Origin: Aromatoleum toluolicum
GTDB lineage: Bacteria > Pseudomonadota > Gammaproteobacteria > Burkholderiales > Rhodocyclaceae
Direction: 5' to 3'
Assembly: GCF_012911005.2 (NCBI RefSeq)
Contig: NZ_WTVS01000045.1
Span: 1-48,726, forward strand
DNA: 48,726 bases
Part shown: positions 22,917 through 44,389 of the stretch, in pieces
Position numbering within the stretch: the first letter of the stretch is position 1
How the letters are laid out: every line of letters starts with the position of its first letter
Notes under the pieces: generated by a model
Database searches by the model: none
What the model saw: only the letters and a program-made list of their open reading frames with translations
Told to the model about the DNA's origin: nothing
Translations under genes and position numbers: made by a program

Positions 22917-23054
22917 CACGTGGCTCCAATCCTGGCTGGCTGTTCCAGCCAATCAAAGGGGACGACTCGACCGCGATCGAGGACCGCGATCTTTCGCATC
23001 CCGCAATTATTGTCGAAAACGGCGTCTCCGCCTCGCTTTGCGCACGCGGCGGCG

Positions 23055-23666: not shown

Positions 23667-23677
23667 GCTCCCGCCCC

Positions 23678-23995: not shown

Positions 23996-24238
23996 CTTGC
24001 TCCCACGCCGAGATTACGGGCGGCCATTATATGGTGCGCCACCGCTGATCTGGTCGCTGCAGTCACGCACCCCCTGGAGCCTGCCGTCTGGCAGATCGCC
24101 CGGTTTTTCAGTGACGAGAGCGATGCCGGCCCGGTAAAGCGTCCTTCACCGAGCCAGCGCAAATCGACGAAGTTCAAACAGGAAAGCGACACATCTTCAT
24201 CGGAGGGGAAATGCGGGCTGCAACGAGCCCGATTTGAT

Positions 24239-25195: not shown

Positions 25196-25197
25196 GA

Positions 25198-25971: not shown

Positions 25972-25998
25972 AATTAATCCTCCAGAAGTTCTCACAAT

Positions 25999-26604: not shown

Positions 26605-26670
26605 GGCATTCCTCGTTTGCAGTCGCATCCGCGGCCAGGGCTGCGGACATCGGGGCTTTCATAGTGGTCG

Positions 26671-28446
<1,776 letters not shown>

Positions 28447-28460
<14 letters not shown>

Positions 28461-29448
28461 TGGCGTGTTCCTTTACTGAAAGCATGATTTTTCCGATATG
28501 CCGGCTACTCTCCATCAGCGCATGCGCGGCTCCCGCGTCCGCCAGCGGGAAGACCGAATGAATGACCGGCAGGCACTTGCCTTGTTCGAGCAGCGGCCAT
28601 ACCGCGGCTTCAAGCCGGCGTGCGATGTCCGCTTTCTGGTCGTCGCTGCGTGCCCGGAGCGTCGAACCGGTCAGCGTCAGGCGCCGCAACATGATGGGTG
28701 TCGCATCGAAATCGAAATGACTGCCCTCGAGGAATGCAATCTGGAGCAGGCACCCCTCCAGCGCGAGGCAGCGGAGATTCCTTTCGACGTAGGGGGCTCC
28801 GACCATGTCGAGGACGACATCGACACCGCGGCCGGAGGTTTCGCGCGCGATGACCGCGGCAAAATCCTCGCTGCGGTAATTGATCGCCCGCGTCGCGCCT
28901 GCCGCGACGCAGGCCTGCAGTTTTTCCCCGCTCCCGGCGGTGGCATAAACCGTTGCACCGAAGGCATTCCCCAGCTGGATCGCCGTCAGGCCGATGCCGC
29001 TCGATCCGCCATGGACCAGCAGGGACATGCCCGCATCCAGACCAGCGCGGTCGAACACGTTCGCCCACACGGTGAAGTAGTTTTCGGGCAGCGCGGCGGC
29101 CTGCAACATTGTCACTCCCGTCGGAATCGGCAGGCAGTGGCGCGCATCGGTGACACAGAACTCGGCGTAGCCACCGCCCGGCGTGAGCGCACACACGGCA
29201 TCGCCCGGCCTCCACCGTGTGACGCCCTCACCGACGGCAACGATGACACCCGACACCTCGAGCCCAAGCCACGGCGAGGCGCCCGTCGGCGGCGGATACG
29301 ATCCGGAACGCTGCAGCACGTCGGGGCGATTGACGCCGGCGTAATGCACCTCGATCAACACCTGGCCAGCGGCGGGTGACGGACACACATCATCGACGAC
29401 GCGGAGCACGTCCGCGGCGCCGCCCGAACCATGATCGATTCGTTTCAA
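28447..29448 (-). CDS. NAD(P)H:quinone oxidoreductase, zinc-free MDR (PIG3/QOR type)
   Basis: 333 aa. MDR fold without zinc ligands: VHYAGVNRPDVLQRSGSYPPP, GLEVSGVIVAVGEGV, ALPENYFTVWANVFDRAGL and the cofactor loop VHGGSSGIGLTAIQLGNAFGA. The C-terminal part (RHIGKIMLSV) is typical of the PIG3 group. Two starts are possible. TTG at 29448 lies 8 bases after AGGAG, while the ATG at 29469 has no ribosome site and would put AGGAG inside the gene, so I prefer TTG. It may reduce a quinone or act as an enoyl reductase. Confidence 0.85.
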
Positions 29449-29512
29449 GGCAACATCTCCTGAATTCATTGGCCAGGCCGCGCCGGCAACACCGCCGGCG
29501 GCCCGGGATCGC

Positions 29513-30217
29513 CTACATGCCGAGGTAGGCTCGTCTGACGTGGTCGCTGTCGAGCAACTCCTGACCGGTGCCACTCAGCGAGATTTCTCCGTTCTCGAGA
29601 ACGTAGCCGCGGTCGGCGAGCTTCAGCGTGTGGAACACGTTCTGTTCGACGATCAACACGGTGATGCCCTGCGCCGTGATCTTCTCGATGATCTCGAACA
29701 TCATCTCGACCAGCAGCGGCGACAGGCCCAGCGAGGGCTCGTCGAAGATCAACAGTTTCGGGGAAGCCATCATGCCGCGCGCGATGGCAACCATCTGCTG
29801 CTCGCCTCCCGACAGCGAGCCGGCGTGTTGCGCCAGTCGCTCGCGCACGCGCGGAAACATCTCGAGCACTTCCTCGTACCGCTTTGCGACCGTCGAGCGG
29901 GCTGCCTTCTTGTAGGCGCCCATCAGCAGGTTGTCCTTGACCGTCAGGAACGGGAACAGTTGCCGGCCTTCGGGGATCATCGTCAGTCCCCGCTCGACGA
30001 TCTCGTTGGCGGGGCGATTCGAGATATCGGCACCATCGAAGGTGATGCGGCCGCTTTGTGCACGCACGACGCCGCACAGCGTCTTCAACGTCGTGCTCTT
30101 GCCCGCACCATTGACACCGACGATGGTGACGACCTCGCCTCGATTCACTTCGAACGAGATGCCGCGAAGCACTTCGCTTTTGCCGTAGCCGGCCCTCAGA
30201 TCATGCACTTTGAGCAC
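29513..30217 (-). CDS. livF: HAAT-type ABC transporter ATPase, LivF
   Basis: 234 aa, the normal LivF length when started at GTG 30217 (AAGGGG lies 7 bases before it), giving MLKVHDLRAGYGKSEVLRG. Walker A is GVNGAGKST, signature SLSGGEQQMVAIARGMM, Walker B LLIFDEPSLGL. With LivG it powers import of a branched-chain-amino-acid-like or carboxylate substrate. The start overlaps the end of livMG by 17 bp in another frame, so translation is coupled. Confidence 0.93.
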   Translation of the reverse strand: MLKVHDLRAGYGKSEVLRGISFEVNRGEVVTIVGVNGAGKSTTLKTLCGVVRAQSGRITFDGADISNRPANEIVERGLTMIPEGRQLFPFLTVKDNLLMGAYKKAARSTVAKRYEEVLEMFPRVRERLAQHAGSLSGGEQQMVAIARGMMASPKLLIFDEPSLGLSPLLVEMMFEIIEKITAQGITVLIVEQNVFHTLKLADRGYVLENGEISLSGTGQELLDSDHVRRAYLGM

Positions 30218-32078
30218 TTTGATACCCCTTGCCGTCTTGCACACGGATGGCGTCGGTCTTCGTCGCCCGATCCTGCCGTTCGCTACCGCCCGCCCCGGGC
30301 TTTGCGCTTTCATAGCCCTTGCCGAGATACGCCTGGATGACTTCGGTATTGGTCACGACCTCCTGCGGACTGCCGCTCGTCAGCACCTGGCCGGTGTGGA
30401 TCACCAGGATGCGATCGGACAACGCCATCGTCGCCTGCATCAGGTGCTCGATGAGGAGCACCGAAACACCCGAGTCGCGAATCCTGCGTACCATCGCAAT
30501 GGCCTTCTCGACGTCGGACGGATTCAGCCCGGCCATGACTTCGTCGAGGAGCAGCACCTTCGGCCGGGTCGCGAGCGCCCGTGCGACCTCGAGGCGCTTC
30601 AGGCCGCCGACGGTCATGCTCTTCGCTTCGGTTCCGAGCAACGCGCTCAGGTCGGTCAGATCGGCCACCTCGCGGGCAATCTGCTCGGCCTCGGCGCGGC
30701 TCTTTGTGTGCATGAAGGCGCCGAGCATGATGTTCTCCAGCACGCTGAGGCCGGAGAACGGCTGCGCGATCTGGAACGTGCGGCCCACGCCTGCACGGGC
30801 AAACGCATTCGGTGAGGCCGGGCTAAGCCACCCGCCACCATCGCCAGCAATCGTCACCGAACCGCTGTCGGGCCGGATGAAACCTGACAGCTGATTGAAC
30901 ACCGTCGTCTTGCCCGCACCGTTGGGCCCGATGACGCCGAGGATTTCGCCCGAATGCAGCGTCAGTGACACGTCGTCGGTCGCCTTCAGTCCGCCGAAAT
31001 TCTTCTTGAGATGTTCGGCCTTCAGGATCGGCTCGCCCTGCGGCGGCCGCGCAACGTGGTGCAGCTGCGACGTCACCTTGGGCTCGGTGATCGTCCCCAA
31101 CCGAGGCAGGCGGTCGACGAGTCCCCGGACACGGTTGCCGAACTGGCCGACGATACCTCGCGGCATGGTCAGCACAACCACCACGAGGATGACGCCATAA
31201 ATGAAGCCGTGCGTCCCGCTACCGAGGCTGCTCAACCAACCGCGTGCAAGTTCCGCGACCGGCAGCACCAGCACGGTACCCGCCAGCGGGCCCGCCACAC
31301 TGCCAAGTCCGCCAATCAGGGCGAACATCGCAACCTGGATCGAGAGCTCAAGCGAAAAGGCGGCCGATGGTTCGATGAAGGTGAGATACATCGCGTGGAA
31401 GCTGCCCACCATGCTGGTGAGGATTGCGGAGATCACGGCAGCAATGATTTTCACGCGTGTCGTATTGACGCCTACCGCCTGGGCGGCATCCTCACGCTCG
31501 CGCACGGCAACGAGGTAGAAGCCGAGACGCGACTGGCGTACGTACCATGCGACCCACAAGGTGGCGAGCAGGAATCCGAACGCGATCAGCAGGTAGGGCA
31601 GCTTCTCGCGAAAGATCATCCACGGCAGGCCGATGTTCAGCGGCACACTGAGTCCCGCCGAGCCGCCGGTCCAGTTGCCTTGGTGGACCACCAGCAGCTT
31701 GACCACCTCGAGCATCGCAATCGTCACCAGTGCGAAGAACGGTCCGCGCAGCCGGAGGGTCGGATAGCTGATCGCAACCGCAAGCACGGCCGACACGGCA
31801 GCACCCACGAACATGCCGATCCACGGCGACACGCCGAAATTGATGGTCATCAGCACGGCCGTGTAGCTGCCTACACCGTAAAACACGGCATGGCCCAGCG
31901 ACATCTGTCCGGCATAGCCGCCGACCAGGTTCCATGCCGTCGCCAGCGCACCGTAGACACAGATCAGGACGAACAGGTGATAGACGAACGGGGAGTTGAA
32001 CGCCAGCGGCACGAGCACCAGCAACGACAACACCAGCAGGCTCACGTACGTTCGTGGGTGACGCAGATTCGGAATCAT
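30201..32078 (-). CDS. livMG: Fused HAAT permease-ATPase, LivM-LivG
   Basis: 625 aa. Residues about 1-320 are a LivM-type permease with many hydrophobic helices (NLVGGYAGQMSLGHAVFYGVGSY, ALIGGLGSVAGPLAG). Residues about 345-600 are a LivG ATPase (ILGVIGPNGAGKTTVFNQLSG, VGRTFQIAQPFSGLSVLENIM, MTVGGLKRLEVARALAT, VLLLDEVMAGLNP). LivM-LivG fusions are known in this transporter class. The last 40 residues, after the ATPase, contain two similar units (GKGYESAK and GKGYQSAQ). The ATG at 32078 follows AGGAG. Confidence 0.93.
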   Translation of the reverse strand: MIPNLRHPRTYVSLLVLSLLVLVPLAFNSPFVYHLFVLICVYGALATAWNLVGGYAGQMSLGHAVFYGVGSYTAVLMTINFGVSPWIGMFVGAAVSAVLAVAISYPTLRLRGPFFALVTIAMLEVVKLLVVHQGNWTGGSAGLSVPLNIGLPWMIFREKLPYLLIAFGFLLATLWVAWYVRQSRLGFYLVAVREREDAAQAVGVNTTRVKIIAAVISAILTSMVGSFHAMYLTFIEPSAAFSLELSIQVAMFALIGGLGSVAGPLAGTVLVLPVAELARGWLSSLGSGTHGFIYGVILVVVVLTMPRGIVGQFGNRVRGLVDRLPRLGTITEPKVTSQLHHVARPPQGEPILKAEHLKKNFGGLKATDDVSLTLHSGEILGVIGPNGAGKTTVFNQLSGFIRPDSGSVTIAGDGGGWLSPASPNAFARAGVGRTFQIAQPFSGLSVLENIMLGAFMHTKSRAEAEQIAREVADLTDLSALLGTEAKSMTVGGLKRLEVARALATRPKVLLLDEVMAGLNPSDVEKAIAMVRRIRDSGVSVLLIEHLMQATMALSDRILVIHTGQVLTSGSPQEVVTNTEVIQAYLGKGYESAKPGAGGSERQDRATKTDAIRVQDGKGYQSAQSA

Positions 32079-32092
32079 TGTGCGCACTCCTG

Positions 32093-32965
32093 TTATTCCG
32101 ATCCGCGCCCCAGGCCAAGCAGACCGGTCGGGCGAACCACGAGAATGAGGATGAAGATGACGAAATAGACGACCTCTTTCAGGTCGGGCGAGATGTAGTA
32201 ACCCGCAAGGCTGTCGACCAGACCGATCAGCAGGGCACCGATCAACGCGCCGTAAAGGCTCCCCATGCCGCCGAGCACGACGACGACAAATGCCGTCAGC
32301 GTGAAATAGCTGCCAACGGTGGGGAACACCGGGTACTGCGTCGACAGCAGGGCCGCAGCAAGACCAACGCATGCCGCCCCGAGCCCGAATGCGTAGACGT
32401 ACATGCGGTCGACATTCACGCCCATCAGGCTGGCCGCATAGCGGTGCTGCGACACCGCGCGAAAGGCCCGCCCGACGTAAGTGCGCTGCAGGAACACGTG
32501 CAGGCCGCCGACCAGTGCGATAGCCATCAGGAAGGTCACCAGCTGGCCGCTGACGATACTCAGCTCTCCCAGCTGAAAACTCTCCGCACCGAATCCCGGC
32601 GAGATCTGTCTGACGTCCGCACCGAAAATCAGCAGCCCCAGATTGAGGAGGGCCGTGGAGACGCCAACGGTCGCAAAGATCTGAATGTGCGGATCCGCCT
32701 TGAGCAGCGGCTGAATGACGAAGCGCTGAATCACTGCGCCGGTCACGAACAGCATCAGGGCGACCGGAATGGCGGAAACATACGGATGCCAGCCGAGTTG
32801 CTGCGACGCCAGGAACACCGCGTACATCCCGATCATCAACAGCTCGCCGTGCGCAAAGTTGACGACGCGTACGACGCCGAAAATCAGGGTCAGGCCGATG
32901 CTGATGATCGCGTAGGCACCACCGAGCAACAGGCCATTTACGATCAATTGAAGGAAGATATCCAT
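32093..32965 (-). CDS. livH: HAAT-type ABC transporter permease, LivH
   Basis: 290 aa, about eight transmembrane segments. Conserved pieces include LLLGGAYAIISIGLTLIFGVVRVVNFAHGEL at the N-terminus (cited as region about residues 12-43) and GMGSLYGALIGALLIGLVDSL near the C-terminus. It pairs with LivM in the inner membrane. Its ATG at 32965 follows AAGGAG at 5 bases. A 12-bp-arm hairpin lies between it and the binding-protein gene, which may lower expression of livH and the downstream genes relative to the binding protein. Confidence 0.93.
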   Translation of the reverse strand: MDIFLQLIVNGLLLGGAYAIISIGLTLIFGVVRVVNFAHGELLMIGMYAVFLASQQLGWHPYVSAIPVALMLFVTGAVIQRFVIQPLLKADPHIQIFATVGVSTALLNLGLLIFGADVRQISPGFGAESFQLGELSIVSGQLVTFLMAIALVGGLHVFLQRTYVGRAFRAVSQHRYAASLMGVNVDRMYVYAFGLGAACVGLAAALLSTQYPVFPTVGSYFTLTAFVVVVLGGMGSLYGALIGALLIGLVDSLAGYYISPDLKEVVYFVIFILILVVRPTGLLGLGRGSE

Positions 32966-32980
32966 TTCGGCTCCTTGTCC

Positions 32981-33013
32981 CGACGTATCGACCGGAAGCC
33001 CGTCGATACGTCG
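32981..33013. repeat. Hairpin between the binding-protein gene and livH
   Basis: CGACGTATCGAC (32981-32992) and GTCGATACGTCG (33002-33013) form perfect 12-bp arms around a 9-nt loop. No T-run follows, so it is more likely an mRNA-stabilising or attenuating structure than a full terminator. It would favour extra binding protein over permease, as is usual in such operons. Confidence 0.6.
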
Positions 33014-33031
33014 AAACCTGGGTTTATCCGG

Positions 33032-34246
33032 TCAGCGGCCGACCACCGGCTCGCTGACAGCCACTTCCTTCGGGAATACCGTGACCAGCTTGCCGTTCTG
33101 CCACTGCATCAGGTTGGCCTTGGCCTGGCGATTCTGTCCGTCCTCGCCAAACTCGAAACCCCAGCCGCTTGCCGTTGAGCCAACGGGTTTCTTGTAGGCC
33201 ATGACGGCCCCGCGGATCTTGTCCTTGTCGGTCGAGCCTGCGGCAGCCAGCACATCCAGGAATGCCTTCGCGCCGACGTAATTCGTCAGGCTATGGCCCG
33301 AGCGCGGCGCGGTGCCATAGCGCTTGGTGTACAAGGCGACGAAACTCTTCAGGCCCGGCGCGCCTTCCTCACGCGTTTCATACTGGGTGAAGTCGACGTT
33401 GAACGCACCGTTGAGGGTTTCGCCCAAAGCTGTCGCGGTATCCGCCATCGAGTAGCCGCCACCGGCGCCGATCAAGGCCTTCGGCTTGAAGCCGGCCGCC
33501 TTGGCCTGATTGAAGAACAGGATCGTGTCGTTCTGGTAGGAGGTCTGCATAACAACGTCGGCCTTCGCCCCTTTTAGCCGCAGGATCAGGGAAGACAGAT
33601 CGACGGTCTTCGCCGAATACGGCAGGATCTCGACGACGTTCAGCCCGTCGCGGGCCGCCTTCTCCTTCTGGAATCCGGAAATGGTCGTGCCGTAGAGGCT
33701 GTCCTCATGGATGATCGCGATCTTCAGCGATTTCGGATCGACCTTCAGGGCCGGCGCAATGACGTGCGTCACCGCATCCACCATCCCCTCCGCGAAGTTC
33801 TTCGCGGTCGGGTTGCTGCGGAACACATACTTGTAACCGCGTCCGGTTACGGAGTCGGAGACCGCACCGAGTTCAAAGTAGGGCACGCCCGCCAGTTCGG
33901 TAACCTGTGTGGCCGCAAAGGCGAGCGCCGAAGAATAGCTGCCGAAGATCGCCGAGACCCCTTCGACCGAAGTCAGCCGGCGCGCCTCGCCGACCGCCTG
34001 GTTCGCATCCACGGCATCCGCCTTCACCAGCGCGATCTTCTGCCCGTTGATGCCGCCGGCGGCGTTGCGCTCCTCGACCGCCAGTTCAAGACCGCGGTAG
34101 CTCTCATTGCCGAGGAGCGCCAGGCCGCCACTGAACGGGTATAACGCACCCACCTTGAGGTCGGCGGCAGCAACCGAACCGGCCGCAATCAGCGACATGC
34201 CGAAGCCGGCACACAGCGACAGACACTTCCGTGCGAATGTTTTCAT
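33032..34246 (-). CDS. HAAT-type periplasmic substrate-binding protein
   Basis: 404 aa beginning with a signal peptide (KTFARKCLSLCAGFGMSLIAAGSVAAA). The mature part is a type I periplasmic-binding fold: LKVGALYPFSGGLALLGNES, GGINGQKIALVKADAVDANQAVGEARRL and IFGSYSSALAFAATQVTE (cited as regions). It is a LivK relative, but members of this class bind amino acids, aromatic acids, urea, amides or polyol acids, so the substrate is open. The ATG at 34246 follows GGAGGAG. First gene of the leftward unit; its promoter is covered by LacI-type operators. Confidence 0.9.
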   Translation of the reverse strand: MKTFARKCLSLCAGFGMSLIAAGSVAAADLKVGALYPFSGGLALLGNESYRGLELAVEERNAAGGINGQKIALVKADAVDANQAVGEARRLTSVEGVSAIFGSYSSALAFAATQVTELAGVPYFELGAVSDSVTGRGYKYVFRSNPTAKNFAEGMVDAVTHVIAPALKVDPKSLKIAIIHEDSLYGTTISGFQKEKAARDGLNVVEILPYSAKTVDLSSLILRLKGAKADVVMQTSYQNDTILFFNQAKAAGFKPKALIGAGGGYSMADTATALGETLNGAFNVDFTQYETREEGAPGLKSFVALYTKRYGTAPRSGHSLTNYVGAKAFLDVLAAAGSTDKDKIRGAVMAYKKPVGSTASGWGFEFGEDGQNRQAKANLMQWQNGKLVTVFPKEVAVSEPVVGR

Positions 34247-34293
34247 AAACGTCTCCTCCTCACGATTTCACGATGTTCGCGACACTCATTAAT

Positions 34294-34305
34294 TGAAGCG
34301 CTTTA
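34294..34305. promoter_or_regulatory. LacI-type operator O1 (livK side)
   Basis: TGAAGCGCTTTA is 11/12 identical to the perfect palindrome TGAAGCGCTTCA at 34359-34370. It overlaps the candidate -10 and start site of the binding-protein gene, so a bound repressor would block RNA polymerase. The central GCGC step is the usual mark of LacI-family operators. Confidence 0.75.
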
Positions 34306-34330
34306 TAGTTGCAACTTGCATGTGCTTCAA
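34302..34330 (-). promoter_or_regulatory. Candidate promoter of the livK-etfA unit
   Basis: Reading leftward, TTGAAG (34330-34325) and TATAAA (34307-34302) are separated by exactly 17 bp. The start site would fall near 34296, giving a leader of about 50 nt before the ATG at 34246. O1 overlaps the -10. Confidence 0.6.
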
Positions 34331-34358
34331 CGTATAAAGAGATTAGCACACCTTTTTT

Positions 34359-34370
34359 TGAAGCGCTTCA
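34359..34370. promoter_or_regulatory. LacI-type operator O2 (livK side)
   Basis: A perfect palindrome, TGAAGCGCTTCA, between the -35 of the leftward unit and the lacI gene. Its centre is 65 bp from that of O1, about six helical turns, which suits looping by a LacI tetramer or binding by two dimers. It may also mediate autoregulation of the regulator. Confidence 0.8.
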
Positions 34371-34499
34371 TTTTTTTAATTCGATGCCGTTAACAAATTT
34401 TCCGGGCTATCATCACAGCGTAGATGAAGGCATCTCCGCGGCAACGTAACAGCGTTACTCATACACAGTGGACATCCACACACCCAGCTGAACAAGGCA

Positions 34500-35525
34500 A
34501 TGCCAAAACAGACCAGACCCGCCACCCTGGAAGATGTTGCACGTCTCGCAGGCGTCTCGTTGGGCAGTGCGTCGCGCGCGCTGTCGATACCTGAAGCCGT
34601 GAAGCCAAAGACGCTGACCAAGGTCATGACCGCCGTGTCACAACTTGGCTATGTGCGCAATGGTGCCGCCAGGGCCCTGGCATCGCGCAAAACACACACG
34701 ATTGCGGCGATCTATCCGACGCTGAAAAACCCGACGTACGCCAACTCGGTCGACTCGCTGCAGCAGACCTTGTCCAGCGTGGGCTACCAACTCGTCATTG
34801 GCAGCCATGAATACAGCGTCGAGCGCGAGATCAACGTGGTGCGAGCGATTGTCGAGAACAGCATCGACGGCATCATCCTCGTCGGCGCGGACCACGATGA
34901 AGAAGTGTTCCGGCTGATCCGCCAGCGCAATCTCCCTTATGTCCTGACGTGGTCGGTCGATGAGAGCGACTATCAGCACAAGGTCGGCTTCTCGAATCAC
35001 GTTGCCGCGTACGAGATGGCGAAGCGCGTCCTCGCGATAGGCCACACGCGCATCGCGCTGTGTGGCGGGCCGACCATCCACAACGAACGCGCCCGCGCTC
35101 GAATCGCGGGCACACTCGCGGCGATCCGCGAAGCGGGACTGGAGGTGCCACCCCACTGGATCATCGAAGCACCGTTCTCACTCGAAGGCGGGAGTGAGGT
35201 GATTGCCAAGCTATGGCAATCAGCTGACCGGCCGACGGCGCTGATGTGCGGCACCGACCTGCACGCCATTGGCGCACTGCACGAATGCAGGCTGCGGGGC
35301 ATCGAGGTGCCGAAAACCCTCTCCGTAACCGGCTTCGACGATATCGAATTCGCCCGCATCGCGACGCCCCCCCTCACGACGGTGCGGGTACCGATCACCG
35401 AGATCGGGGTGCACACCGCCCACAAGATCGTCGCGCTGATCGAAGATCGGCCGCAGGGAGATGAACCCCTGCTGTTGACGCAGATCGTCGAGCGCGAAAG
35501 CCTCGCCGCACCGCCGGCACAGTAA
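34500..35525 (+). CDS. LacI-family transcriptional regulator
   Basis: 341 aa. The N-terminal HTH and hinge (TLEDVARLAGVSLGSASRAL, then YVRNGAARALASRKTHTIA) precede a periplasmic-binding-like effector domain (AIYPTLKNPTYANSV, GIILVGADHDEEV, GFDDIEFARIATPPLTTVRVP). It lacks a leucine-rich tetramerisation tail of the LacI kind; the chain ends shortly after the core. It stands between the two leftward operons and is divergent from the first. The four TGAAGCGCTTCA-like sites upstream of these operons are its presumed targets. The effector is unknown. Confidence 0.92.
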   Translation: MPKQTRPATLEDVARLAGVSLGSASRALSIPEAVKPKTLTKVMTAVSQLGYVRNGAARALASRKTHTIAAIYPTLKNPTYANSVDSLQQTLSSVGYQLVIGSHEYSVEREINVVRAIVENSIDGIILVGADHDEEVFRLIRQRNLPYVLTWSVDESDYQHKVGFSNHVAAYEMAKRVLAIGHTRIALCGGPTIHNERARARIAGTLAAIREAGLEVPPHWIIEAPFSLEGGSEVIAKLWQSADRPTALMCGTDLHAIGALHECRLRGIEVPKTLSVTGFDDIEFARIATPPLTTVRVPITEIGVHTAHKIVALIEDRPQGDEPLLLTQIVERESLAAPPAQ

Positions 35526-35559
35526 GCCGGCGAGGGCGCGGCGAGGTGCGGCGCGCGAT

Positions 35560-37157
35560 TCAGCCGCGGCTGGCATCCTCCAGAATCAGGTCCGCCGCCT
35601 TCTCGGCCACCATCATCACGGCCGCCTGGGTGTTCCCGGAAACCATTTTGGGCATCACCGAGGCATCGACGACGCGTAGTCCGGCGAGCCCGCGCACGCG
35701 CAGGCGCAGGTCGACCACGGCATCGTCGTCTTCTCCCATGCGGCACGTGCCGATCGGGTGATAGATCGTCTGGCCGTTCGCACGCGCAAACTCGACCCAG
35801 TCGGCATCGCTGACGACGTCGCTGCCGGGACTCATCTCATGCTCGATGTACTTTCGCAGCGCCGGCCGCCCGACGATGCGTCGTGCAATCTCCATGCCGC
35901 GCACCATACACTGCTGGTCGACCTCTGAAGCGAGGAAGTTCGGGCGGATCACCGGCCCCGCGTGAGGGTCGGCCGAGCGGGCGTGAATGCTGCCGACCGA
36001 CTCGGGGCGCAATTGGGTCACGCCGATCGTCATGCCGGGGGCCCGGTCGAGGATCCGCTCCGCCGCGTTGGCGTAACTCGCATGCACGAAGAAGTACTGC
36101 ACGTCGGGCGTCGGCAGATCGGGCCGAGTCCGCACGAACCCGTGCACCAGGCCGGTCCCCAGCGTCAGGATGCCCGTACGGCGAGTGAAATATTCGGCCA
36201 CCGCCAGCGCAAGGCGCCATCCACGCGCCATCTCGTTCAGCGTCACGGTATTCCTAACGCGCCAGTTCATTCGCGTCGCGAAATGGTCGATGTAGTTCTC
36301 GCCGACGCCAGCGAGCGGGTGCAGCACCGGAATCCCCAATGATTGCAGCAACGCAGGCCTGCCGATGCCGGAGAGCTCGAGAATTTGCGGCGTCTGGACC
36401 GCACCGGCGGCCATGACCACCTCGACCTTCGCCTGCACCGTGACTTCCCGCTCACCCACGCGATAGGTCACGCCGACACAACGCCGCCCGTCAAGATTCA
36501 AGCGAAGCACATGGGCATTGGTCACGATGCACAGATTGCCACGCCGGCGTGCCGGCTTCAGGTAGCCATCGACGACACTCCAGCGGCGGCCACGGTGCTG
36601 GGCGACCTGATAGTAGCCAAAACCGTCCTGCCGGCCGGCGTTGTAATCCTCGTTCAGAGCATGCCCGTCTTCACGCGCAGCGTGCAGGAAGGCATCGGCG
36701 ATCGGAAAGCGCTCATCCACGCGTGACAGATTCATCGGACCGTCATGGCCTCGCCGCTCGTCGCCTTCCTGGTAGCTTTCGAGCTTCCTGAAATACGGCT
36801 CGACGTCGCGCGCCCCCACCCACGGGCCCCGGCCTGCTCCCATGAATCATAGTCCTCGGGCTGACCACGGGCGTAGATCATCCCGTTGATCAGGGTCGAT
36901 CCGCCGAGGCCCTTGCCACGTGGCACGGCGATCTTGCGGCGCAGCGTGTTGTCCTCGGGTTCGGTCTCGAAGCACCAGTTGAATTTGCGATTGGTCAGCA
37001 GCTTGCTGAAGCCAGCCGGGATGGGAATCCACATGCTGCGTGCCTCGCCACCGGCTTCGAGCATCAAGACGCGGAAGCGCCCCGATGCGGTCAAACGGTT
37101 GGCCAGAATGCAGCCGGCAGTCCCGCCGCCGACGATGATGTAGTCAAATTGGTCCAT
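35560..37157 (-). pseudogene. GMC-family FAD alcohol dehydrogenase with a +1 frameshift
   Basis: The N-terminal part (from ATG 37157, MDQFDYIIVGGGTAGC, through PRGKGLGGSTLINGMIYARG) and the C-terminal part (ARDVEPYFRKLE to the end, with HPIGTCRMGEDDD and SGNTQAAVMMVAEKAADLI) lie in different frames. The break maps to a C5 run at 36813-36817 (G5 on the coding strand): removing one base restores the family sequence RGWGARDVEPYFRK. The repaired protein would be about 531 aa, normal for choline-dehydrogenase-like GMC enzymes that oxidise primary or secondary alcohols. Active-site His and Asn are present. It is either a true mutation or a homopolymer sequencing error. It is the last gene of the ALDH unit, 7 bp after the FAD dehydrogenase gene. 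Confidence 0.85.
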
Positions 37158-37164
37158 GGCACCG

Positions 37165-38565
37165 TCACCGGGTGACAATTGTTTGAGGAAGTACCTTGCC
37201 CGGATTCATCAACCCGGCCGGGTCGAGGGCAAGCTTGATGCGCCGGGCCAGCTCGAGTTCCGGAGCCGACCGACAGCGGTGTAACTCATCGACCCGGTAC
37301 TGGCCGATTCCGTGTTCCGCTGAAATGCTTCCACCATGGGCGACGACAAGGTCATGGACGAGGCGATTCAGGACCTGACTGTCAGCGTCAGGCGGAATGA
37401 TCACGTTGTAGTGGATATTGCCGTCACCGGCATGGCCGAATGCGTTGATGCGCGCCTGGGGAAACGCTTTCATCACCGCCTCGTCGGCGACTCGCAGAAA
37501 GGCCGGAATGAGCGCGATCGGAACCGACACGTCGTGCTTGATCGAACGCCCCGCGCGCGCTTCCGCCTCGGTGATCGATTCGCGAAGGTGCCACAACTCA
37601 CGCTCTTGTTTCTCGGACTCGGCGATCACTCCGTCGCTCGCCGCGCCGCGCTCAAGGACGTCAGCCAACATCTCCTCCACAGCATCACGGAGCGACGGCA
37701 GCGAGGAACTGGCCTCCAGCAACACGTACCACGGAGCCGGGGCCAGGGGCGTGGTCAGTCCGACATGGCGTGCAACAAGCTCGAGTGCGGGCCCCGCCAT
37801 CAGCTCGAACGCATTCAGCGTCTCGCCGATCGCCTGGCGTGCCAGACGCAGGACCGCCAGCGCATCGTCCGCGGATGGCACCGCCAGCAGCGCCGTCACC
37901 CGGTGCCGCGACTTCGGCGCAAGCTGCAGCACCGCCGCGGTAACGATGCCCAGCGTGCCTTCGGTACCGATGAACAGCTGCTTCCAGTCGTAGCCCGCAT
38001 TGTCCTTGCGCAACTGTCGCAAACCGCTGACGATCGTGCCATCGGCCGTCACCACCTCCAGCCCGAGCACCCGCCCGCGCGCCATGCCATAGCGCAGCAC
38101 ATTGGTGCCCCCGGCATTGGTCGACAGGATGCCGCCTATCCGTGCCGAACCTTCGGCAGCAAGGGTAATCGGTAACAGCAGCCCCGCGTCGGCCGCCGCC
38201 TCCTGGGCGACCTGCAGGATGCAGCCGGCTTCGACTTCCATCGTCTCGCCGATGACGTCAAGACTGCGAATCGCCGACATGCGTGACAGTGACAGGATCA
38301 CCTGCTCACCGCTGGCGTCAGGCGTCGCCCCTCCCGAAAGGCCGGTGTTGCCGCCATGCGGAACGATCGGCACACCGGCCGCGGCGCACAGTCGCACCAC
38401 CGCCGCAACCTCCGCCGTGCAGCGCGGCAACACCGCACACCGTGCCCTGCCCTTGAACATGCCTCGCCAATCAGTGCAGAACGGCGCCAGATCGGCCTCG
38501 TCGGTGATGACGCCACGCTCGCCGACAACGCGGCGCAATGCTTCAATCGAGAAGTCTTCCATCAT
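37165..38565 (-). CDS. FAD-linked 2-hydroxyacid dehydrogenase-like (GlcD/D-lactate/D-2HG type)
   Basis: 466 aa. The PCMH-type FAD domain shows PHGGNTGLSGGATPD and GGILSTNAGGTNVLRYG, and the C-terminal domain shows NAFGHAGDGNIHYNV and SAEHGIGQYRVDEL, as in D-lactate, glycolate and D-2-hydroxyglutarate dehydrogenases. Several bacterial D-2-hydroxyglutarate dehydrogenases pass electrons to ETF, which fits the etfBA genes of the neighbouring unit. The specificity is not readable. The start ATG at 38565 overlaps the stop of the AroE-like gene (ATGA). A second ATG follows immediately. Confidence 0.88.
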   Translation of the reverse strand: MMEDFSIEALRRVVGERGVITDEADLAPFCTDWRGMFKGRARCAVLPRCTAEVAAVVRLCAAAGVPIVPHGGNTGLSGGATPDASGEQVILSLSRMSAIRSLDVIGETMEVEAGCILQVAQEAAADAGLLLPITLAAEGSARIGGILSTNAGGTNVLRYGMARGRVLGLEVVTADGTIVSGLRQLRKDNAGYDWKQLFIGTEGTLGIVTAAVLQLAPKSRHRVTALLAVPSADDALAVLRLARQAIGETLNAFELMAGPALELVARHVGLTTPLAPAPWYVLLEASSSLPSLRDAVEEMLADVLERGAASDGVIAESEKQERELWHLRESITEAEARAGRSIKHDVSVPIALIPAFLRVADEAVMKAFPQARINAFGHAGDGNIHYNVIIPPDADSQVLNRLVHDLVVAHGGSISAEHGIGQYRVDELHRCRSAPELELARRIKLALDPAGLMNPGKVLPQTIVTR

Positions 38566-39371
38566 GCCCCCGCCGCCTCGGCGATTCCCATGAATGCCGC
38601 CATCAGCTCGATCTGGCACGCGAGCATCGGCGCACCGTAGTGAATGCGGCAGCCCTGCCGCCTGGCAGCCAGCAGCAATGGCGTGTCGGCCGGCTGCATG
38701 ATGATTTCCGCGACGATCTGGTTCGCTTCCAGGTGTTGCGCATCGCACGGCAATGCATCCCCCGGGCGCAGCCCCAGCGAGGTTCCATTGACGACAATGT
38801 CATGCCCTGTCGGATCGCCCGTGCCGACGGCAAGCGGCAGGAGCGGGTAGGCCGCAGCGAGGCGGTCGACGAGGTCGGTGGCCTTTGCAAGCGTGCGGTT
38901 GGCGACGGTCAGCCGCGCCACACCGGCCTTCGCCAGGGCAAACGCGATCGCGTTGGCCGCCCCGCCGGCTCCGGCGAGATACGCGCTGCGTCCCGCGGGG
39001 TCAATTCCCTCCCGACGCAACCCGGCGATAAAGCCTTCACCGTCCAGAATCTCGCCAATCAGGCGGCCGTCCGGACTTCTCCGTACCACGTTGACCGCTC
39101 CAATTCGCGCCGCAGCCGGTGACACCTCGTCGCACAGCGCCACCATCGCGGTCTTGTGCGGCACGGTCACAACGAAGCCGTCCAGGTTATTCATCCCCCG
39201 CAGGCCGGCCACCACCGACGCAAGGTCTCCGGCGGTGACATGAATCGGCACCATCACGCTATCGACCCCGCGCAGTTGCAGCAGACGATTGATCCCCTGA
39301 GGGGTTTTCACGTGATGGATCGGGTCGGCAAGAATGGCGCAGATTCGGGTCGTTCCAGTGATCTCGTTCAT
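38562..39371 (-). CDS. AroE-like (shikimate/quinate dehydrogenase family) oxidoreductase
   Basis: 269 aa. The family fold is clear: FVVTVPHKTAMVALCD holds the catalytic Lys, LDGEGF the catalytic Asp, AYLAGAGGAANAIAFALA the nucleotide loop and ANRTLAKA the cofactor-selecting strand. The substrate carboxylate motif, usually SxS in HSxSP, is replaced by V-K-T (HHVKTP), so shikimate is unlikely to be bound in the standard way. It may oxidise a different polyhydroxylated ring or acid. ANRT lacks the second Arg of strict NADP+ enzymes at a comparable place, so NAD+ is possible. It lies 4 bp after the aldehyde dehydrogenase gene. Confidence 0.82.
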   Translation of the reverse strand: MNEITGTTRICAILADPIHHVKTPQGINRLLQLRGVDSVMVPIHVTAGDLASVVAGLRGMNNLDGFVVTVPHKTAMVALCDEVSPAAARIGAVNVVRRSPDGRLIGEILDGEGFIAGLRREGIDPAGRSAYLAGAGGAANAIAFALAKAGVARLTVANRTLAKATDLVDRLAAAYPLLPLAVGTGDPTGHDIVVNGTSLGLRPGDALPCDAQHLEANQIVAEIIMQPADTPLLLAARRQGCRIHYGAPMLACQIELMAAFMGIAEAAGA

Positions 39372-39375
39372 GGAT

Positions 39376-40809
39376 TCACGCCAGCGTGTAGGTTGTTTTC
39401 ACCGAGGTATAGAACTCGCGTGCGTAACTGCCCTGCTCACGCGGCCCGTAGCTCGAACCTTTGCGACCGCCAAACGGGGCGTGGTAATCGACGCCGGCCG
39501 TCGGCAGATTCACCATCACCATCCCCGCCGTCGATCGCCGCTTGAAATCCGTCGCATGCTTCAACGAGGTCGTGCAGATACCCGACGACAAGCCAAACAC
39601 GGTGTCGTTGGCGACCGCCACGGCCTCTTCGTAATCCCTGACCCGGATGACACTCGCGACAGGGCCGAACACCTCCTCGCGGTTGATGCGCATCGCATTC
39701 TCGGTGTCAGTGATCAGTGCCGGCGACAGGTAATGGCCAGCGGTCGCGCGCTGCAGCAGATCGCCGCCGAACACCACACGCCCCCCCTCGGACCGCGCGC
39801 TCTCGATGTAGGACAGATCCTGATCGAGCTGATCCTGCGAGACGACCGGCCCAATGTCGGTGCCGGGCTGCAAAGCGTCATCAATCCTGAGCGCCGACAG
39901 CTTCTCGACCATCGCAGCGACGAAGCGGTCGTGGATGCCGTCCTCGACGATCAAGCGACTCGAACCCGTGCAGCGCTGACCGGTCGAGTAAAACGAACCG
40001 TTGATCGCGACCGACACCGCCACATCGAGGTCGGCATCGTTGACGATGACCAGCGGATTCTTTCCGCCCATCTCGAGCTGCACCTTCGCCCCCCGCTCCA
40101 TGCAGTCCAACCCGATGCGTCGCCCCGTACCGGTCGACCCGGTAAAGGTCACGGCGCGAACCTTGGGCGACTTGACCATCGCGTTTCCGACTTGGGAGCC
40201 GGCACCCATCACCAGGTTGAACACACCGGGAGGTAATTTGCCGGCACGCACAATGATCTCGGCCAGCGCCCACGCACTGCCCGGCACGAGATCGGCGGGC
40301 TTGAACACCACCGAGTTGCCATAAGCCAGGGCCGGAGCGATCTTCCATGCCGGGATCGCAATAGGGAAGTTCCACGGCGTAATGATGCCGATGACCCCTT
40401 CCGGCTCACGGTGTACGTCCACGTCCACCCCGGCGCGGATTGCCGGCAAGCGCTCCCCGCCGAGGCGCAGTGCCTCGCCCGAGAAGAATTTGAACACTCG
40501 CCCCGCACGCGTCACTTCTCCGATGCCTTCGGGCAAGGTCTTCCCTTCTTCACGCGACAGCAGTCGGCCAAGCTCCTCGCGCCGCGCCAGCAACTCCGTG
40601 CCGATGCGGTCCATCGCATCGGCACGCTCTTCCGCAGTGCTGCGCTGCCACGTTTGCTGCGCGTCGAATGCCGCATCGATCGCATGCTGCGCCTGCGCCT
40701 CGTCTGCCCGCGCGTATTCACCAACCAGGTCGTCCAGATTCGAGGGATTGATGTTGCGGTTGATCGCAACACCCTCCATCCATTCGCCACCGATAAAGTT
40801 CTTGAACAC
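39376..40809 (-). CDS. Aldehyde dehydrogenase (2,5-dioxovalerate/ketoglutarate semialdehyde type)
   Basis: 477 aa, NAD(P)+-dependent. TPWNFPIAIPAWKIAPAL (catalytic Asn), LEMGGKNPLV (Glu) and STGQRCTGSSRLIV (nucleophilic Cys) are all in place. The C-terminus with APFGGRKGSSYGPREQGSYA and EFYT resembles alpha-ketoglutarate-semialdehyde dehydrogenases of sugar-acid and hydroxyproline pathways, so a C5 dicarboxylic semialdehyde is a reasonable substrate guess. The start is GTG 40809: AGGAG lies 8 to 9 bases upstream, and the chain then begins MFKNFIGGEW as the family does. It is the first gene of the four-gene unit. Confidence 0.9.
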   Translation of the reverse strand: MFKNFIGGEWMEGVAINRNINPSNLDDLVGEYARADEAQAQHAIDAAFDAQQTWQRSTAEERADAMDRIGTELLARREELGRLLSREEGKTLPEGIGEVTRAGRVFKFFSGEALRLGGERLPAIRAGVDVDVHREPEGVIGIITPWNFPIAIPAWKIAPALAYGNSVVFKPADLVPGSAWALAEIIVRAGKLPPGVFNLVMGAGSQVGNAMVKSPKVRAVTFTGSTGTGRRIGLDCMERGAKVQLEMGGKNPLVIVNDADLDVAVSVAINGSFYSTGQRCTGSSRLIVEDGIHDRFVAAMVEKLSALRIDDALQPGTDIGPVVSQDQLDQDLSYIESARSEGGRVVFGGDLLQRATAGHYLSPALITDTENAMRINREEVFGPVASVIRVRDYEEAVAVANDTVFGLSSGICTTSLKHATDFKRRSTAGMVMVNLPTAGVDYHAPFGGRKGSSYGPREQGSYAREFYTSVKTTYTLA

Positions 40810-40895
40810 CGACCTCTCCTTTCGTCGATCCGTGTGAATCACATGGCTCTCCGGCGGCTCCAGCATTCAAGCCCAATCCTTCAGCCACTCACTTT

Positions 40896-40907
40896 TGTAG
40901 CGCTTCC
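40896..40907. promoter_or_regulatory. LacI-type operator O3 (ALDH side)
   Basis: TGTAGCGCTTCC matches TGAAGCGCTTCA at 10 of 12 positions and keeps the central GCGC. It lies about 15-25 bases downstream of the likely start site of the ALDH unit, a blocking position. Its centre is 66 bp from O4. Confidence 0.6.
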
Positions 40908-40927
40908 AAAACACGTGTTATCAGAAT

Positions 40928-40955
40928 TTATATAAGTGCCAGGACAAAGTAAACG
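40928..40955 (-). promoter_or_regulatory. Candidate promoter of the ALDH unit
   Basis: Reading leftward, GTTTAC (about 40955-40950) precedes TATAAA (40933-40928) by 16 bp, between operators O4 and O3. The -35 is a moderate match. The location between two operators is the better evidence. Confidence 0.45.
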
Positions 40956-40961
40956 TTTTTA

Positions 40962-40973
40962 TGAAGCGCTTCA
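40962..40973. promoter_or_regulatory. LacI-type operator O4 (ALDH side)
   Basis: A perfect copy of TGAAGCGCTTCA, identical to O2 upstream of the binding-protein gene 6.6 kb away. It lies just upstream of the candidate -35 of the ALDH unit. Between here and 41291 (about 320 bp) I see no further gene or clear site; small ORFs there are not protein-like. Confidence 0.8.
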
Positions 40974-41291
40974 TTTTTATAATGTCGACTCAATGCGGTT
41001 CAACGTCTCGGTCGTGTCATCACGTCGCCCGCTACCGTCGATGCGCCACCCGGGCCCGCGCCATGAAGGTCCATCTGGGCACCGACCCGCACCCCATCGG
41101 CAGAGCTGCACGGGACGACCGTTGACAGCGCGACAGCAGCAGACGGCCATGAGCCGTCCGCCGTCGTTACATTTCGCTTGAATGTCATCGGTGGCAGGCT
41201 ATGTTGAATCAATGACGTGACGAGCGACTCTCTTCGGCCAGAACGACGAATCAACTTCTCTCCGCTACGCAGCCAATGTCAGGAGTCGGTT

Positions 41292-42265
41292 ATGACGACC
41301 AAGCGCGAATTCCTGAGAATCAGTACGCTGGCTGGCGCGGGGACGTTCCTTTTCACCAAGTTCGGGTTCATCCGGCGTGCCTTTGCCGCGATACCGGGTG
41401 GCACGCTGGATCCCGCTTCAATCACGAAATACGCCATGCCATTGGTCATCCCGCCGGCGATGCCCAAGACAAGCGGCGGGCGAGTCGACTACTACGAGAT
41501 CGCGGTCCGGCAGTTCCAGCAGCAGATCCTGCCTACCCCCTGCCCCGTACGACGGTATGGAGTTACGGCTCGGCCAACCACCCGGATACGTTCAATTACC
41601 CGGCCTTCACCATCGAAGCCAGGTACGGCAGGCCGGTCCGGGTCAAGTGGATCAACGACCTGAAAGACGCCGACGGGAACTTCCTTCCCCACCTCCTGGC
41701 GGTGGATCCGATGCTCCATTGGGCTAACCCGCCGGGCGGCGCCGCGGGCCGGGACATGCGCCCGAGCTTCGCGAGCACCCCGGGCCCCTATACCGGCCCG
41801 GTCCCGATCGTGACCCATCTGCACGGGGGGCACAGCGCCCAGGAAAGCGACGGCTATGCCGAGGCCTGGTACCTGCCTGCGGCGAACGACATCCCCGCGG
41901 GCTTCGCCAGCGAGGGCACGTGGTACGAATTCTTCAAGAGCGAGTTCTCCAGCAAGTTCGGCGAGGTCTGGGAGCCTGGCACGGCGACGTTCCAGTATGA
42001 GAACGATCAGCGGGCGAGCACGTTCTGGTATCACGACCATACGCTGGGCATGACCCGCTTGAACGTCTACGCGGGCCCCGCCGGGTTCTATCTCCTGCGC
42101 CGCGGACCGGGCGATCTTCCGGACCCGGTTCTCCCCGGTCCGGCCCCGGAGGTGGGGGCCGACCCCTTCGGGAGATTCTATGAGGTTCCCATCGCGATCC
42201 AGGACCGCTCCTTCAACGCGGACAACCACGACCGACGGCTTGTGGCCGAATGCTGTCTGTCATGA
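41292..42265 (+). pseudogene. Multicopper oxidase (CotA/bilirubin oxidase-like), frameshifted and truncated
   Basis: The first part (ATG 41292 after AGGAG) is MTTKREFLRISTLAGAGTFL, a Tat-like leader with KR in place of RR, and continues to QFQQQILPTP. The frame then breaks at a C5 run (41536-41540); one extra C would restore LPRTTVWSYGSANHPDTF. The second part includes THLHGGHSAQESDGY and FWYHDHTLGMTRLNVYAG, the copper-binding HLHG and YHDH motifs of cupredoxin domains 1-2. It stops after IQDRSFNAD, where the family continues for some 250 more residues with the type 1 copper site, so it is cut off as well as shifted. It lies next to a Tn7-like end and may be eroded cargo. Confidence 0.85.
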
Positions 42266-42321
42266 CTCGCTGTCTTACCGTCCGGTCCGGCCGAAGTGAA
42301 GACGGCCACCATCGACTGTTC

Positions 42322-42355
42322 CTCGGCCTTATGCATAGCTTTCCATAAGGCCGAG
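42322..42355. repeat. Perfect 12-bp-arm hairpin
   Basis: CTCGGCCTTATG (42322-42333) pairs with CATAAGGCCGAG (42344-42355) around a 10-nt loop. It lies in the unannotated stretch between the multicopper oxidase remnant and the terminator at 42410. Function unknown; there is no T-run. Confidence 0.6.
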
Positions 42356-42409
42356 CACCCGACGTCTGAGTGGAAGCGCGCAGCTCAACCTCATCCCTAA
42401 CCAACTAAC

Positions 42410-42438
42410 GAAAACGCCCGGACGAGCCGGGCGTTTTC
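42410..42438. terminator. Bidirectional intrinsic terminator
   Basis: GAAAACGCCCGG (42410-42421) pairs with CCGGGCGTTTTC (42427-42438) over a 5-nt loop. The stem is G+C-rich with an A-run on one side and a T-run on the other, so it can terminate transcription in both directions, including leftward read-through from glmS into the accessory region. Confidence 0.85.
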
Positions 42439-42450
42439 ATGAGGCAATCC

Positions 42451-42537
42451 AGTTTTCGACTTTATTGCCCAGTTTTCGACTTTAATGACGAGTTTTCGAC
42501 TTTAATGACGAGTTTTCGACTTTAATTGTCAGGAACA
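42451..42537 (-). mobile_element. Tn7-family right-end remnant at attTn7
   Basis: Four tandem 20-bp repeats run from 42451 to 42530. On the minus strand each reads close to CAATTAAAGTCGAAAACT, resembling the TnsB-binding sites of Tn7 (GACAATAAAGTCTTAAACT, from memory). The array ends in TGTTCCTGACAA with the terminal TGT at 42537-42535. The outermost base is separated from the glmS stop codon by exactly 25 bp (42538-42562), the Tn7 insertion distance, and the end beside glmS is the right end in Tn7, which has four packed sites. The adjacent AGATC (42538-42542) would be the target duplication. No tnsABCDE genes and no left end were found, so this is a remnant or solo end. Confidence 0.8.
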
Positions 42538-42562
42538 AGATCACTTTATCGCTGCCAACCCC

Positions 42563-44389
42563 TCATTCCACCGTAACCGACTTCGCCAGGTTACGCGGCT
42601 TGTCCACGTCGGTCCCCTTCACCAGCGCCGCATGGTAGGACAGCAACTGCAGCGGCACGACGTGCAGCACCGGCGACAGCAGGCCGTAGTTCTCGGGCAT
42701 CTGCAGGATGTGCACGCCCTCCGACTCGGGGATCTCGCTGCCGGCGTCGGCGAACACATACAGCTCGCCGCCGCGCGCGCGCACTTCCTGCAGGTTCGAT
42801 TTCAGCTTTTCCAGCAGCTCGTCGGCCGGCGCGACTGCGATCACCGGCATGTCTTTGTCGACGAGTGCCAGCGGGCCGTGCTTCAGCTCGCCGGCCGCGT
42901 AGGCCTCGGCGTGGATGTAGGAGATTTCCTTGAGCTTCAGTGCCCCTTCCATCGCGATCGGCCAATGCTGGCCGCGGCCGAGGAACAGCGCGTGCTGCTT
43001 GCCGGCGAAGCGTTGCGCCCAGCGTTCGATCTCCGGCTCGAGATCGAGCACCTTCTGCACCGCCACCGGCAGGTGGCGCAGCGCCGTCAGGTGGCGCGCC
43101 TCCTCCGCTTCGGGCAGGCGGCCGGCGAGCTTGGCGAGCGACAGTGTGAGCAGCGCCAGCGCTGCGAGCTGCGTCGTGAAAGCCTTGGTGGAGGCGACGC
43201 CGATCTCGGGACCCGCGCGCGTGATGAAGCGCAGCGCCGCCTCGCGCACGATCGCCGACTCGGGCACGTTGCAGATCGCCAGCGTGCGCTCCATGCCCAG
43301 CACCTTGGCATGCTTGAGCGCGGCGAGCGTGTCGGCGGTCTCGCCCGATTGCGAGATCACGACCACCAGCGTGTCGGGGTTCGCGACCGATTCGCGGTAG
43401 CGGTATTCGCTCGCGATCTCGACGCTGCACGGCACCTTCGCGATCGCTTCGATCCAGTAACGCGCGACCAGACCGGCGTGGTAGCTCGTGCCGCACGCGA
43501 GCACCAGCACGCGCCCGACACCGCCGAGCAGCTCGGGCGCCTGGGTGCCGAACAGCTGCGGCGTCACCGAGCCGCCGCCGGCGATGATTTCGAGCGTGTT
43601 CGCCAGCGCCTGCGGCTGCTCGAAGATCTCCTTCTGCATGTAATGACGGTACTGGCCCAGCTCGACCGCGTCGGCCGACAGGCTCGACACATGCGTCGCG
43701 CGCTCGACCGGCGTGCCGTCGGGGCGTGCGATGCGGTAGCCGTCGAGGCGCAGCTCGGCGATGTCGCCATCCTCGAGGTAGATCACCTTGCGCGTGACCT
43801 GCAGCAGCGCCGCCGTGTCGGAGGCCGCATACATCCCGTCCTCGCCCACGCCCAGCAGCAGCGGCGCGCCGTGGCGCGAAACGATCACGCGCGCGCGGTC
43901 GGTTTCGCTGATCACGCCGATCGCGTACGCGCCGACGAGCTCGTTGGTGGCCAGGCGCACTGCCTCGAAGAGATCCGGCTGGACCGCGAGCTTGCTGTGG
44001 ATCAGGTGGGCGATCGCCTCGGTATCGGTTTCCGAGACGAACTCGTAGCCCTGGGCCATCAGGCGCTGCTTGATCGCCTCGAAGTTCTCGATGATGCCGT
44101 TATGCACGACGGCCAGCCCCGCCGACACATGCGGGTGCGCGTTGCGCTCGGACGGCACGCCGTGCGTCGCCCAGCGCGTGTGCGCGATGCCGATGCCGGC
44201 GTCGAGCTTCTGCTCATCGGCACGCGCCGCGAGTTCGGCGACGCGGCCGGCCGCGCGCACGCGCTGCAGCCCGCCATTGAGCACGGCCAGGCCGGCGGAG
44301 TCGTAGCCGCGATATTCCAGCTTGCGCAGGCCTTCGAGGAGGACGGGGACGACGTTCTTCGTCGCGATGGCTGTGACGATGCCGCACAT
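42563..44389 (-). CDS. glmS: Glutamine-fructose-6-phosphate aminotransferase
   Basis: 608 aa, full length. MCGIVTAIA provides the N-terminal Cys nucleophile of the glutaminase domain (residues about 1-230). The two SIS domains follow with [19 protein letters not shown] and [17 protein letters not shown], and the chain ends in the conserved [12 protein letters not shown]. It makes glucosamine-6-phosphate for peptidoglycan and LPS. Its 3' end is the recognition site of Tn7 TnsD, which explains the transposon end 25 bp downstream. It lies 15 bp after glmU. Confidence 0.97.

Follow-up and report, generated by a model that had tools for sequence, protein, structure and literature searches.

A probable old Tn7-like element without transposition genes behind glmS in Aromatoleum toluolicum

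The DNA analysed here, which we call the window, is a stretch of 48,726 nucleotides from Aromatoleum toluolicum (contig NZ_WTVS01000045.1). Positions 22,941–42,537 are very probably an old Tn7-like element that reached glmS by TnsD-type targeting and lost tnsABCD; its interior would have been replaced species by species, with the end facing glmS kept. The island is thus best read as defunct or non-autonomous, with cargo that turned over behind a glmS-side end that stayed. The observations are two ends, their position, a search that found no cognate TnsB, relatives that carry tns genes and target duplications, and interiors that differ between species.

The right end of Tn7 faces glmS and is packed with TnsB sites of about 20 bp; the element terminates in TGT and the sites of its left end are spaced. 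The window has a packed end of this type on the minus strand at 42,451–42,537. It consists of a TGT terminus (42,535–42,537), TGTTCCTGACAAT and four 14-bp cores in 20-bp steps; the minus-strand sequence of the terminus is TGTTCCTGACAATTAAAGTC. TRF calls a 20-bp tandem repeat at 42,449–42,526 (3.9 copies, 94% matches), and four exact minus-strand copies of the 14-mer TAAAGTCGAAAACT start at 42,451, 42,471, 42,491 and 42,511. Allowing two mismatches, 0.09 matches to TAAAGTCGAAAACT are expected in the window, and four were reached in none of 100 shuffles. With up to one mismatch, the 14-mer is absent elsewhere in the 6.16-Mb draft genome. We also built a weight matrix (PWM) for ends from 99 termini. 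The right end scores 47.2, the top of 97,398 window positions.

A spacer of 25 bp (42,538–42,562), measured from ORF positions and by reading the sequence, separates the terminus from the stop codon of glmS (42,563–44,389, minus strand; SIS and GATase domains). Its first five bases, AGATC (42,538–42,542), lie directly outward of the TGT and occupy the place of a target duplication. In Tn7 the 3′ end of glmS is the attachment site; according to the available text of PMC2918618, TnsD recognises it and directs insertion there. The array is AT-rich, as judged by reading, in GC-rich surroundings. A 14-bp hairpin lies just inside the array on the minus strand (42,408–42,440) and, from its folding, may be a glmS terminator; the segment 42,390–42,450 folds at −25.5 kcal/mol (z −3.32). 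A consensus terminator scan did not call this hairpin and returned no terminator-like site. Further in is a truncated multicopper oxidase gene (41,276–42,265, plus strand), of which the genome G001, from the same genus, has a longer copy. An earlier sequence-only reading of this DNA had listed the four 20-bp repeats, the TGT, the 25-bp gap, the AT-richness, the hairpin and the truncated oxidase, and our analysis confirms all of them.

The loose pattern AAAGTCNNAAACN8AAAGTCNNAAAC was used to scan the genomes of 84,980 species. This returned 118 stretches with 119 arrays; by title, 98 of the stretches are betaproteobacterial, 8 are unspecific and 12 belong to other groups. A glmS stop codon lies within 60 bp of 66 of the 119 arrays, and for 57 of those 66 the distance is 22–25 bp. 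At the expected terminal position, 46 arrays have TGT and 50 have TAT (96 together); some of the arrays with neither are probably chance matches. Many of the TAT arrays (uncounted) carry Comamonadaceae names, and one element with a TAT terminus and a target duplication exists (G045, described below). Within the first 5 kb inside the 119 arrays, no protein family was shared by more than four loci. Viral contigs gave no exact match to the array. Plasmids gave three records, one of them a Polaromonas plasmid with a related end (E 2e-3).

Relatives with the same end carry transposition genes. In Limnobacter parvus (G077), packed-end sites at 307,406, 307,426 and 307,446 and three spaced left-end sites at 283,570, 283,638 and 283,691 bound an element of 23.9 kb, with GCTTT on either flank as a 5-bp target duplication. 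No glmS lies within 8 kb around this array. In Acidovorax 210-6 (G045), the packed end is behind glmS at 521,926, the other end is at 596,560 and both flanks are CCGGC, again a 5-bp target duplication. Both elements hold TnsA and the cognate TnsB between their ends, with tnsC assigned by ORF position. The G077 TnsB matches Tn7 TnsB (7pik) with an E value of 7.8e-31. In Simplicispira (G041), Polaromonas (G044) and Rhodoferax U11-2br (G057), glmS is followed by the packed end, and TnsA, the cognate TnsB and a PF15978 TnsD-domain protein are encoded some 7–26 kb further in. A second TniQ accompanies the TnsD in all three; of these genomes, G044 alone has a tnsC identified by Pfam. No far end was found for any of the three elements. 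At least 30 TnsA loci were recovered, six of which could be assigned to the contig of an array (G041, G044, G045, G057, G077 and G078). Each of these loci lies inward of its array, by at most 45 kb; the TnsB of G078 is a distant match only (E 2.7e-25). In G041, G044, G057 and G077 the genes of the tns operon point to the packed end, the reverse of Tn7.

The tns genes of the relatives, their target duplications and the match of the G077 TnsB identify the motif as the end of a Tn7-like family. They support the proposal of the sequence-only reading that a Tn7-family end sits at attTn7. That right-end sites occur genus-wide at glmS could also be expected of a native repeat at the 3′ end of glmS whose likeness to a Tn7 end is accidental. 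However, this explanation is refuted by the transposons with target duplications that have the motif at their borders. In addition, the L. parvus array stands apart from glmS, an array in the genus genome G014 is situated within an EAL-domain gene, and conservation drops at the TGT. Hence, a native repeat has almost no probability. The possibility that the array is the end of some other class of element, for instance IS21, is placed at the same very low level, although ends of the IS21 type also carry repeated sites. A PF22483 protein, a family that we take to be IS21-type, is encoded inside one element of the family (G043, described below) but away from both ends of that element, and none of the 37 window ORFs scanned encodes a PF22483 protein. 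For the family as a whole the idea, which the sequence-only reading had raised against itself, is refuted by the cognate machinery of TnsA, TnsB and TnsD/TniQ.

Searches with TAAAGTCGAAAACT found the right end only, because the left end is too decayed. The sequence AGATCTGT, considered as a second junction, gave no signal, with 16 matches at up to one mismatch where 19.4 are expected. A candidate left end, TGTTCCAGCCAATCAAAGGGGACGACT, lies on the plus strand at 22,941–22,967; it aligns with the left ends of G001, G002, G009 and G016. Its PWM score of 1.8 ranks fifth of the 97,398 positions, behind the right end and three inner array units, and was reached by 4 of 100 simulated sequences, so that the left end of the window is weak taken alone. 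It also overlaps a GGCTGG/CCAGCC palindrome, a possible mimic of part of the terminus, which counts against it. A second decayed site, TATTGTCGAAAACG, lies 54 bp inward on the plus strand (23,008–23,021). The corresponding distance is 54–56 bp in the window, G001, G002, G009 and G016, versus 67–68 bp in G043, G045 and G077, a difference that likewise counts against the left end. The left end adjoins a gene for an FKBP-type peptidyl-prolyl isomerase (22,515–22,916, minus strand, ATG start). When the window was divided by GC content into three segments, with cuts allowed every 100 bp, the best pair of cuts fell at 22,900 and 42,600, with a GC content of 62.9% between them and of 68.9% and 67.8% to the left and right. 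Since six relatives have an end at the same FKBP-side place, and the GC cuts are independent of the matrix, we take the element to extend from 22,941 to 42,537 (19,597 bp). The five bases outside its left end (22,936–22,940) are CTGGC and not a copy of AGATC. Thus, the search for a second end that the sequence-only reading had advised led to a decayed candidate, but the window has no 5-bp target-site duplication.

We compared 17 genomes of the genus Aromatoleum, with the window genome as G000. Right-end sites (up to four mismatches; 0.044 expected per 200 bp) occur behind glmS in 14 of the 17, with one to four units each; G004, G011 and G014 have no unit there. The end is therefore old and is no peculiarity of the strain analysed here. 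In several species the array has been lost or has decayed. Left-end matches adjoin the FKBP gene in each of the seven genomes whose examined stretch contained this gene. The scores of the six congeners are 29.5 (G016), 29.1 (G012), 21.9 (G001), 16.9 (G015), 10.4 (G009) and 7.6 (G002); the first four exceed the maximum of 11.0 in 40 simulated sequences of 20 kb and the last two fall below it. The left-end survey excludes G003, G005 and G010, whose contigs end near glmS. No left end was found in the 20–40 kb read behind glmS in G004, G006, G007, G008, G011, G013 and G014. We also looked for an empty site behind glmS in these seven genomes and G017. No FKBP homologue (E 1e-15) was present in the 20–40 kb read of any of the eight, so no empty site of the kind that the sequence-only reading had proposed to look for was found. 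In G006–G008 a PRC-type gene follows glmS; the stretches compared contain nothing that matches it.

The DNA between the ends differs across the seven genomes with both ends. The element is 3,070 bp long in G002, 3,447 in G001, 10,964 in G012, 13,014 in G015, 23,238 in G016 and 44,516 in G009. Two genes just inside the left end, on the minus strand, encode an RNase_T exonuclease (23,055–23,738) and a DUF5710 protein (23,678–23,995). They are common to four of the seven elements (the window, G001, G002 and G016). Next to them is a 17-kb catabolic and transport block (24,082–41,150) with genes for ETF, ALAD, a branched-chain-type ABC transporter, LacI, GMC and FAD oxidases and an aldehyde dehydrogenase. 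It is absent from G001, where the sequence joins the positions of 24,081 and 41,151 directly with a 5-bp overlap, GAGCC. The block was therefore either inserted within the element in the window genome or deleted in G001. In the window, GAGCC flanks the block at 24,077–24,081 and 41,151–41,155, and in G001 it is single. Just inside the two copies, GCCGTCTG and CAGACGGC form an inverted match. The pair of copies resembles a duplication of 5 bp, but none of the window ORFs scanned encodes a transposase. The sequence-only reading had suggested that the accessory genes to the left of the array may be former cargo; this is supported, with the qualification that the catabolic block is missing from G001.

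A tblastn search with 12 Tn7-like proteins (E 1e-3) gave no match to tns genes in the window. The same search found none in the fetched stretches of G001, G002, G009, G012, G015, G016 and G043, and none in the G014 array region. No Mu- or rve-type transposase occurs among the 37 of 191 window ORFs scanned with Pfam, which thus gave no sign of the IstA/IstB pair of an IS21 element. With the G077 TnsB as the query, no cognate TnsB was found in the window genome or its 16 congeners; at E 1e-5 these 17 genomes gave two distant matches only, in G016 (26% identity) and G005 (22%). A five-sequence TnsB profile had no match in G000 or G014. That the end stands without its machinery, as the sequence-only reading had it, thus holds up, and the telling result is that none of the 17 genomes yielded a cognate TnsB. 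The lack of tnsA beside the right end, which had been offered as a sign of loss, is uninformative: in G041, G044, G045, G057 and G077 the distance from tnsA to the packed end is itself about 13–33 kb. Without tns genes and a target duplication, the window element is a transposase-less derivative and not an autonomous member of the family.

Three other sets of Tn7-like genes were considered as the cognate machinery and rejected. A search of the window genome itself for tnsABCD homologues, as the sequence-only reading had advised, led through a TniQ match to one operon. It lies on contig C235 (locus L036, 8,715–14,005), where a tRNA-Ala gene (8,715–8,790) is followed 230 bp on by genes for TniQ, TnsC and a TnsA–TnsB fusion of 890 aa. 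The array core is not nearby, and the operon belongs to a different Tn7-like branch. A genome search with PF08722 missed this fusion, so the absence of machinery is argued from TnsB. In G002, the 4,838-bp contig C23 (L061, 1–4,838) is one small Tn7-like element from end to end, with TnsA (213 aa), TnsB (556 aa), TniB (300 aa) and TniQ (469 aa) encoded between TGTCGTTTTCCG and its inverse; the TnsA of G002 belongs to this separate element. The TnsB of G113, a genome of the same taxonomic family, is 42% identical, but the part of its contig that was read (36 of 56 kb) contains no AAAGTCG-type sites.

Conservation of the right end was assessed in ten close species. The mean p-distance is 0.72 for the 20 bp outside the TGT, 0.13 for the 13 terminal bases and 0.234 for the 4-fold sites of glmS, so that conservation falls sharply at the TGT. 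For the first and last units it is 0.125 and 0.041, figures that lean on units chosen for their similarity. Tn7 has target immunity, by which further insertions are repelled, according to the available text of PMC11406308. The low distances of the units could thus mean that the array is kept as a decoy, a right end that repels incoming relatives from attTn7. We regard this as improbable, since the conservation figure depends on how the units were picked and several species have a lost or decayed array. Furthermore, L150, L156 and L154 each have two ends of the array motif that face each other, with 5 bp between them in the first two and 4 bp in L154, which gives the impression that another element inserted beside the one already there.

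The distance of 0.72 between close species counts against simple descent. Between some related species the sequence of the spacer from glmS to the TGT is wholly replaced, and its length is 23–25 bp in seven of the ten. Such turnover at near-constant length is odd under simple descent; repeated insertion would fit. It is one of the points that favour a different history, in which the element was never autonomous in this lineage and TnsABCD from outside repeatedly placed transposase-less elements at attTn7. Another is Rhodoferax sp. U2-2l (G043), where an element of 14,783 bp with both ends sits at attTn7 between two copies of AACAC. The ten ORFs scanned in it give a metabolic cargo, no Tns protein was found inside, and the genome has no TnsB match at E 1e-20. 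Its intact ends and 5-bp duplication show that it moved recently, and a perfect duplication in a genome where no cognate TnsB was found points to movement of such elements in trans. Within the genus, G012 and G015 share a left-end variant that differs from those of G000, G001, G002, G009 and G016, so more than one insertion is possible. In G014 (L052, 7,553–7,619) a three-unit right end abuts an EAL-domain gene fragment at the TGT, and the glmS of that genome is without an array. The genome also has an intact EAL paralogue, 14 kb away. However, a target duplication is missing from all seven left and right pairs in the genus (for G001, the right flank was read by eye). The left end of the window also looks too decayed to work, judging by its sequence, and the 17 genus genomes hold no cognate TnsB, though the donor need not be there. 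Taken together, placement in trans is a serious but rather unlikely alternative. The missing duplications also count against our preferred reading of an old insertion.

Under that preferred reading, TnsD-type targeting would have placed a Tn7-like transposon behind glmS long ago, and the tns genes would have been lost after insertion. The hairpin at the right end may then have taken over termination of glmS, for which reason the right end would have been retained; the null result of the terminator scan counts against this step. Cargo would have been exchanged between the fixed ends by recombination or by later insertions.

How often the family lacks its own transposase was gauged from 50 of the 118 loci, picked by size of contig, in 48 genomes. 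In 34 of the 48, no TnsB reaches E 1e-20 against the family profile, and 38 lack a strong TnsB match; some TnsA-like gene is present in 25. These shares are rough, because it is not stated how complete the draft genomes are and because the arrays are not all at glmS. We tentatively suggest, as a possibility with somewhat less than even chances, that the majority of the glmS-linked ends that this family has in Betaproteobacteria are those of transposase-less, long-lived shells with fixed ends and exchangeable cargo, mobilised on occasion by the TnsABCD of another element. If islands that are defined by their ends and lack a transposase are indeed common, glmS hotspots have been built in part by borrowers of transposase. 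Its two ends provide the island with exact borders at which such borrowing can be tested. According to the available text of PMC8649781, the published census of Tn7-like elements takes tnsB as its starting point; it therefore misses elements without tnsB. Among the titles listed in literature searches, none dealt with a transposase-less Tn7-like island at glmS in a betaproteobacterium.

Compared with Tn7 itself, the window has the same packed right end facing glmS, the TGT and the position about 25 bp behind glmS; the sites of its candidate left end are spaced as well. It differs in having no tns genes, no duplication and a left end that is decayed. The family agrees with Tn7 in the 5-bp duplication of the relatives and in a cognate TnsB that is homologous to Tn7 TnsB. 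The tns genes read in the opposite direction to those of Tn7 in G041, G044, G057 and G077, and in the same direction in G045. These five relatives share with the window the motif AAAGTCGWAAAC, the 20-bp steps and the terminus TRTTCYG. All except G077 are behind glmS, as in the window; unlike the window, all five carry TnsA and a cognate TnsB. A heavy-metal island of Burkholderia is likewise an accessory island bounded by Tn7-like ends but, in contrast to the window, carries tnsA, tnsB, tnsC and tniQ, as described in the available part of PMC10702557. The element of Rhodoferax sp. U2-2l resembles the window in its two ends, its place at attTn7, its metabolic cargo and the lack of any Tns protein found inside, and differs in that its ends are intact and flanked by a 5-bp duplication.
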